DNA from: Prochlorococcus sp. MIT 0603
GTDB lineage: Bacteria; Cyanobacteriota; Cyanobacteriia; PCC-6307; Cyanobiaceae
NCBI RefSeq assembly: GCF_000760215.1
Contig: NZ_JNAW01000001.1
Span: forward strand, 124,001 to 188,000
Direction of reading: 5' to 3'
Length of the DNA stretch: 64,000 nucleotides
How positions within the stretch are numbered: position 1 is the first letter of the stretch; each line of letters opens with the position of its first letter. Both the position numbers and the translations under genes were made by a program. This document shows positions 12,117 through 14,266 of this stretch, one piece after another. The notes beneath the pieces are model-generated. The model did not search any database. It had not been told where the DNA came from and saw only the letters and a program-made list of their open reading frames with translations.

Positions 12117-12767
12117 TTGAATAGAACCACTAAGATTGCCATCCCTCAACCAAGTTTTATCTATAGATTGGTTAGTTATTTTTTCGTTTTCCCACTTTAT
12201 AGAATTTTGTTTAGGGGCCGAACTTTTGGCAATCAAAATGTTCCACTTTCTGGTCCTTTAGTTGTAGTAGCTAACCATGGTTCTCATCTTGATCCTCCAT
12301 TTTTAGGACATGCTTTAGGAAGGCCAGTTGCATTTATGGCAAAAGAAGAACTTTTTCAAATACCATTTCTTTCTTTCGTAATTAGAGCATGCGGAGCATA
12401 TCCTGTTAGTAGAGGTGCAAGTGATAGAGAGGCTTTAAGAGTTGCGACTGCCCGATTGAATTCAGGCTGGGCAACAGGAGTTTTTTTAGATGGTACGCGT
12501 CAAAACAATGGTCGAGTTAATAAACCTATGGCAGGGGCTGCGTTGCTGTCTGCACGCACTGGCTCCGCGATTCTTCCAGTTGCAATAATTAATAGCCATA
12601 AAGCTCTTAGAAAGGGTTTTGCTTTTCCTCGGTTCATCCCAATTCATTTACGAATAGGTCAAGTGATTCTCCCGCCTGCAAGTCGCAAAAAAGTTGATCT
12701 GGAGCAAACCACTCGTGAGCTTCAGTTGTCTATTAATTCAATGATTGATAAGGGGCTTGTAGACTAA
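12117..12767 (+). CDS. plsC: 1-acyl-sn-glycerol-3-phosphate acyltransferase
   Basis: PlsC-family enzymes acylate lysophosphatidic acid to phosphatidic acid at the membrane. The 216-residue protein has a hydrophobic N-terminus (about 14-33) and the catalytic NHxxxxD motif NHGSHLD (53-59). The motif usually written EGTR reads DGTR here (FLDGTRQNNG), a deviation to note. The start is TTG at 12117, one base after the fabD stop, consistent with coupled translation. It completes the plsX-fabH-fabD-plsC set that works with RpaB upstream. Confidence 0.9.
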   Translation: MNRTTKIAIPQPSFIYRLVSYFFVFPLYRILFRGRTFGNQNVPLSGPLVVVANHGSHLDPPFLGHALGRPVAFMAKEELFQIPFLSFVIRACGAYPVSRGASDREALRVATARLNSGWATGVFLDGTRQNNGRVNKPMAGAALLSARTGSAILPVAIINSHKALRKGFAFPRFIPIHLRIGQVILPPASRKKVDLEQTTRELQLSINSMIDKGLVD

Positions 12768-13344
12768 TTATAAAACTAGATTTTTTACAAAGAAATCAAT
12801 TATATTTTCGAAGTCTTTCCCTGTGAAAATAATCCCTCCTGAACGAAGTAGGTCAACATTTTTTTGCCATTAGGCTCTTTTATACAATAACTATTAAATG
12901 GAATAGATAATGTTGTTAATCTAATACCTCTACTGCCCAAGATTATCTGATCAACATCTTTTACTCTATTAAAATGCTAGGAACTTGTTGTTAATAAAAT
13001 ATGGTTGACTTTCTCATAAGAGAGATCATCTACTATTGATGTAAAGCTTGAAAGTGTCTCTTTTTCCCTGTAACCCCTTTTTATAAGATTAGAAGGAATG
13101 ACTTCTTTTTAATAAGTAAATCTGAATATTTTTGATTACTAACCCTGCTCATTGCTAATTAAAAGTGTAATTCTTGAGTAATTTTTATTCCTGCTATTTC
13201 TCTAGTTATATCTCCTCCTAGAACTAGAATTAACTGTGGTAATTTGTTATTTGTTATTGATCTGAAAAGCGTTAAAGGCCTAAATAATAACAACCATGAC
13301 TAGCCTAAGATCGTAATCACTACAATATTTTGATGCAATCTCAT
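12768..13344 (-). pseudogene. decayed YdcF/DUF218-family gene
   Basis: No intact frame crosses this 577-base stretch, but translating the minus strand across frames recovers a collinear protein. From an ATG at 13344 it reads through an in-frame TAG to LPQLILVLGGDITREIAGIK, then TAA, then SNQKYSDL. After a frameshift it gives SFTSIVDDLSYEK and HILLTTSS, TAG, HFNRVKD and IILGSRGIRLTTLSIPF, and after another frameshift GGIIFTGKDF. This order matches the YdcF/DUF218 family (V-L-G-G-D-I; T-S-x-x-H; GSRGI). I count at least three stops and two frameshifts. Its ATG overlaps the TGA of tsaB (ATGA), so the ancestral gene was translationally coupled to tsaB. The family assignment is from memory of the motif pattern. 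Confidence 0.72.
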
Positions 13345-14018
13345 TTATTATTATCTACAGGAGATGTTGGATAGATTGGTAAAACATTATTCCACTTACT
13401 TTCTTTATTTTCTTCATGTGATTTCAAGCTTAGCTTGATAAGATTTTTAATGTCTTTTCCTATATCTTCTTTTGCTTCTATTGATGGTGAAATCTTTGTA
13501 TTATCTTTTATTAGATGAGGCTTTTCAACTTCTTCTATATTTACATCTTCTGGATCATTATTATTTTTAATTAAAATATATTTGCCAGCCACTACCCCAC
13601 GACGTTTCAGTGAATGTGTTATCCAAAACGATTCATCTTTGTTGGTAAGACTTAATTCATTTGCCAGCCTAGGTGCCATGATTTTGAAACTACTTATACC
13701 ATCTATTGGACAATTTAATTGCTGAGATATTGTTCTTGCTAGTATTATTGTTAATCTTGTACCTGTAAAACCTCCTGGACCAGTTGCAACTGCTAATCGT
13801 GAAATCTGTTTCCATGATGTATACGGCAAAAGTTCTTTTATGCAATAAAACATATGATTTGATAGATTTTTTCCCATTTTAAAAGTTGAGGTCTTAAATA
13901 TTTTTTCAGGAGCGTTTAGCTGAATTAATCCCACTCCAAAATCCTCAGTGGAACTATGCAAAGCTAATAAGTATTGAGAATCTTCACTAATGAGATGTTT
14001 ATTTTGTCTTAGATTCAT
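13341..14018 (-). CDS. tsaB: tRNA t6A synthesis protein TsaB
   Basis: TsaB (YeaZ) is the ASKHA-fold partner of TsaD in making the universal t6A modification of ANN-decoding tRNAs. The 225-residue protein shows the family hallmarks LLALHSSTEDFGVGL at the N-terminus and VATGPGGFTGTRLTIILAR near residues 77-95. The C-terminal half is hydrophilic and poorly conserved. Its start overlaps the end of ycf34 by 4 bases, and its stop overlaps the start of the decayed YdcF-like gene, so it sits in the middle of a formerly coupled three-gene unit. Confidence 0.88.
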   Translation of the reverse strand: MNLRQNKHLISEDSQYLLALHSSTEDFGVGLIQLNAPEKIFKTSTFKMGKNLSNHMFYCIKELLPYTSWKQISRLAVATGPGGFTGTRLTIILARTISQQLNCPIDGISSFKIMAPRLANELSLTNKDESFWITHSLKRRGVVAGKYILIKNNNDPEDVNIEEVEKPHLIKDNTKISPSIEAKEDIGKDIKNLIKLSLKSHEENKESKWNNVLPIYPTSPVDNNK

Positions 14019-14266
14019 GAAGGGATTTTTTCATTTGGACGCAAACGTAACCATCGCCCACTATCTATATCAAAACTTTTGCAAGCTTGTACATCCCATT
14101 CAATTTCTGTGTTTCCCTGAGGTGGATCCATCAAACTGATATGGATTACTGGATCTGTTGGCTCAAAATCTGGTTTCAAATTCAAGTGATTTACTCCATG
14201 CTGTCTTTCAACAGCGTGATAAGCCTTGCATCGATCTACCCATTTGCAGTCAACACATATACACAT
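14015..14266 (-). CDS. ycf34: Ycf34 iron-sulfur protein
   Basis: Ycf34 is a small protein of cyanobacteria and red algal plastids with conserved cysteines that bind an Fe-S cluster (family knowledge). I place the start at ATG 14266, giving 83 residues beginning MCICVDCKWVDRC with Cys at 2, 4, 7 and 13, and later AYHAVERQHG and PDFEPTDPVIHI. A longer in-frame extension to 14431 is possible but runs antisense to cca and does not fit the family N-terminus. It overlaps tsaB by 4 bases. Its start codon shares two bases with the proposed cca start on the other strand. Confidence 0.88.
   Translation of the reverse strand: MCICVDCKWVDRCKAYHAVERQHGVNHLNLKPDFEPTDPVIHISLMDPPQGNTEIEWDVQACKSFDIDSGRWLRLRPNEKIPS

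Follow-up and report, generated by a model that had tools for sequence, protein, structure and literature searches.

Known counterparts of the gene considered here include DUF218-domain proteins of Escherichia coli. SanA and ElyC have a role in envelope synthesis, in which SanA depends on a conserved Thr-His-Glu triad (PMC12176290). A hydrophobic N-terminus is reported for SanA, ElyC and YgjQ, whereas YdcF is predicted to be cytoplasmic (PMC3879167). Binding of S-adenosylmethionine by E. coli YdcF is reported in the same paper, where it is attributed to Chao 2008 (PMC3879167). Whether free-living Prochlorococcus shed genes because small genomes are selected for, or by drift with pseudogenes as an intermediate, is debated (PMC3940434, PMC10837832), and one model has non-essential genes turning into pseudogenes that are later deleted (PMC10837832). 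Prochlorococcus MIT0603, listed as LLII,III (PMC4421930), is the source of the 64,000-nucleotide stretch of DNA analysed here (the window), in which a DUF218 gene, the last of a ycf34-tsaB-DUF218 run, is almost certainly a unitary pseudogene.

The pseudogene fills the gap between plsC and tsaB which, at 573 nt, is the longest gene-free stretch of the window, as the first-pass annotation had stated; the next longest, at 401 nt, contains a tRNA-Asn gene. Both ends of the gene survive: its ATG (13344-13342) overlaps the stop codon of tsaB in ATGA form, as previously described, and its final stop, TAA (12770-12768), abuts plsC (Table 1). The identical ATGA overlap with tsaB is found in the intact copies of three relatives (G006, G005 and G019), and also in the open copy of G004. 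The open reading frame upstream of tsaB is one that we take to be ycf34-like, and its stop is overlapped by the tsaB start, again as ATGA, at 14015-14018. Given such overlaps at both ends of tsaB, ycf34, tsaB and the DUF218 gene probably formed one ancestral run, each gene overlapping the next.

Table 1. Features of the pseudogene and its neighbours, in window positions; the places of the two frameshifts are approximate.
Feature	Position	Strand	Basis
DUF218-family pseudogene, 577 nt	12768..13344	-	Frameshift-tolerant alignment to intact orthologues; orthologous position in relatives
ATGA overlap of pseudogene start codon and tsaB stop codon (13343-13341)	13341..13344	-	Sequence
In-frame stop TAG, within the N-terminal hydrophobic stretch	13300..13302	-	Frameshift-tolerant alignment
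In-frame stop TAA, after LGGDITREIAGIKITQELHF	13159..13161	-	Frameshift-tolerant alignment
Frameshift, one base fewer than orthologues (approximate)	13100..13101	-	Frameshift-tolerant alignment
In-frame stop TAG, beside the conserved His within TSxYHxxRA	12977..12979	-	Frameshift-tolerant alignment
Frameshift, one base fewer than orthologues (approximate)	12867..12868	-	Frameshift-tolerant alignment
tsaB, intact, upstream partner	13341..14018	-	TIGR03725, 105 bits (cut-off 69.3); aligned with 8 relatives
plsC-type acyltransferase gene, intact, convergent neighbour	12117..12767	+	PF01553, E 5e-26
Gene taken to be ycf34-like	14015..14263	-	ORF and sequence

The gap was aligned to a position-specific profile of eight open orthologues from the same genus, by means of a frameshift-tolerant dynamic programme written for this analysis. 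The alignment scored 361, the open genes themselves scoring 515-715, while 100 dinucleotide-preserving shuffles gave a mean of 24.6 and a maximum of 36, and 94 other pieces of the window of 577 nt reached at most 48. Nearly the whole protein is covered, and 100 of the 186 codons aligned match the consensus of the genus (54%). The first-pass annotation had counted at least three stops and two frameshifts, and the alignment places exactly that number, three in-frame stops (TAG, TAA and TAG) and two single-base deletions; the peptides it had quoted from the minus strand are all found in order, spread over three frames. Restoring the two missing bases turns the 577 nt into 193 codons, the last of them the stop, and so into a protein of 192 aa, as against about 188-202 in the intact orthologues of the genus. 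The motifs LGGD, FTSIVDDL and GSRGIRLT are left in the pseudogene, as is the distal His.

As to family, the name YdcF/DUF218-like proposed in the first reading is only partly retained. Two intact orthologues match Pfam DUF218 (PF02698) at 42.3 and 34.8 bits, above the cut-off of 27.6, as do many others, and the window copy is collinear in homology with these DUF218 orthologues. At the N-terminus, windows of 19 residues have a mean hydropathy of 1.5-2.5 in 11 orthologues, a hydrophobic stretch that they have in common, along with the DUF218 domain, with SanA, ElyC and YgjQ of E. coli (PMC3879167, PMC12176290); with YdcF they share the domain, but not the cytoplasmic character predicted for that protein (PMC3879167). 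A search of the PDB with a profile of four orthologues gave chance-level matches only, with neither YdcF nor any other DUF218 structure among them, and a search of NCBIfam with the orthologues gave no matching model. DUF218 is thus the right family but, given the hydrophobic N-terminus and the missing match to a YdcF structure, the YdcF subfamily name is unsupported for the tsaB-linked gene. The intact gene probably encodes an enzyme that is anchored in the inner membrane and, like SanA or ElyC, works on the envelope; the envelope role is that of the E. coli proteins and would extend to the cyanobacterial one by likeness.

The same locus was fetched by way of tsaB from 80 named records and from further genomes of the family, and a tree was built from 93 distinct tsaB+plsC loci, this window included. 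The check proposed in the first-pass annotation comes out in its favour: an intact DUF218 gene in the matching place and orientation lies behind tsaB in most relatives (79 of 93 loci, SS120 among them, and 57/57 rows on the Synechococcus and Cyanobium side of the tree), as a rule in overlap with tsaB or directly adjoining it. The window copy shares with these tsaB-linked genes of Prochlorococcus and Synechococcus (for example that of SS120, 194 aa, L040) its place and orientation, its overlap with tsaB or nearness to it, its corrected length and its motifs, but it is broken and 10 of 36 near-invariant residues are gone. The 14 loci that are not intact comprise this window, a pseudogene in AG-432-D11, an open but motif-poor copy in G004, and 11 clean deletions, in which the match to plsC starts roughly 20-120 nt past the tsaB stop. 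The copy in Prochlorococcus sp. AG-432-D11 (L105, QCOP01000032.1), a second pseudogene at the same place, is more shredded, with five frameshifts and three stops. That of G004 (L035, G004:C1) is open over about 195 codons and keeps 29/37 near-invariant residues, the His of TSxYHxxRA being among the eight lost, and is either in early decay or altered in function. Parsimony on the 93-locus tree requires five present/lost changes, a number to be taken as an estimate because several inner branches are weakly supported. About five separate losses would thus fit the tree, with loss repeated within Prochlorococcus and not unique to MIT0603. A further possibility, of which we are rather doubtful, is that loss of the tsaB-linked DUF218 gene in Prochlorococcus is both repeated and directional, perhaps reflecting a common shift in envelope biology and not chance.

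The pattern of substitution in the window copy is that of a gene under relaxed constraint. With near-invariant residues defined over 80 orthologues, the window copy keeps 26 of 36 (0.72), while seven of the eight open copies of the genus lose none or one. On a fixed topology its terminal branch is 2.32 times that of tsaB+plsC, the highest ratio of 24 tips, as compared with 0.39-1.52 for intact tips and 1.69 for G004. At second codon positions it differs from orthologues by 0.20-0.30, the orthologues differing among themselves by 0.03-0.23; at third positions the difference is about 0.5 from every relative compared, which we read as saturation even towards the nearest compared species. In simulations of AT-biased neutral drift, the fraction of residues kept and the three stops are both obtained at 0.10-0.15 substitutions per site, and the decay looks neutral. 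Given that third positions look saturated and that the decay amounts to only 0.1-0.15, the loss is placed towards the end of the terminal branch. The earlier claim of recent loss is therefore supported in a relative sense only, the loss being recent against the divergence from every relative examined (about 0.1-0.15 neutral substitutions per site).

Given that the genome is a draft in 7 contigs, errors of sequencing or assembly might have broken an intact gene on paper. This is extremely unlikely for two reasons: five lesions fall inside 577 nt while the flanking tsaB and plsC stay open, and the replacement of 10/36 near-invariant residues, together with a 2.3-fold branch, is beyond plausible rates of base-calling error. 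Those altered residues also bear on the idea that the gene is recoded, a working protein being made by programmed frameshifts and stop readthrough. The survival of LGGD, FTSIVDDL, GSRGIRLT and the distal His would suit such a gene, but two kinds of stop codon over three sites would have to be read through and two shifts made, an arrangement that no intact orthologue shows, and the probability of recoding is negligible.

The retention of nearly the full length in a compact genome also raises the possibility that the DNA of a dead gene is kept for another role, as a 3' UTR, a terminator spacer or a small RNA between convergent genes. An Rfam scan of the gap and the window found no RNA family in the gap, its sole match being a tRNA elsewhere in the window, and a scan for promoter-like sites gave no excess over chance; it gave one weak terminator-like match, at 13424-13438 on the + strand, within tsaB. 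Furthermore, 11 relatives have only roughly 20-120 nt left before plsC, and the apparently neutral decay also speaks against a retained function, which makes this explanation very improbable.

In the favoured account, that of a unitary pseudogene, inactivation came about through point mutations and single-base deletions after the split from the other species compared, and the pseudogene is now drifting free of constraint. Loss is tolerated in several Prochlorococcus lineages, where its endpoint is clean deletion. This is ordinary, well-documented gene decay, of the same kind as other pseudogenes of Prochlorococcus genome reduction (PMC10837832), and an unusually clear snapshot of it, since at one syntenic place the gene is found intact, open but motif-poor (G004), broken (MIT0603), shredded (AG-432-D11) and deleted. 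As a model in which pseudogenes form first and are deleted later is already available (PMC10837832), the locus is a good example of it and not a new kind. For a low-light lineage, it offers a worked, roughly datable case of gene loss by way of a pseudogene, and it marks a conserved DUF218 gene as dispensable in some lineages.

The MIT0603 draft genome comprises 1,752,482 bases, in which the pseudogene DNA is found once; an exact 32-base pattern from it was absent from the viral contigs searched. Only one other DUF218 gene is present, of 260 aa and another type, and given that it is common to most relatives there is no sign that it replaced the lost gene. The attributes of a unitary pseudogene, namely lesions, relaxed constraint, intact syntenic orthologues and a sole copy in the genome, are thus all found at this locus. 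At L017 (G000:C5, a contig of 3.2 kb), an open frame adjoining the other DUF218 gene carries a near-perfect 25-residue acidic repeat (EETSSVEEIKAPEEEPVIEAMGNST), which may account for the contig ending there.
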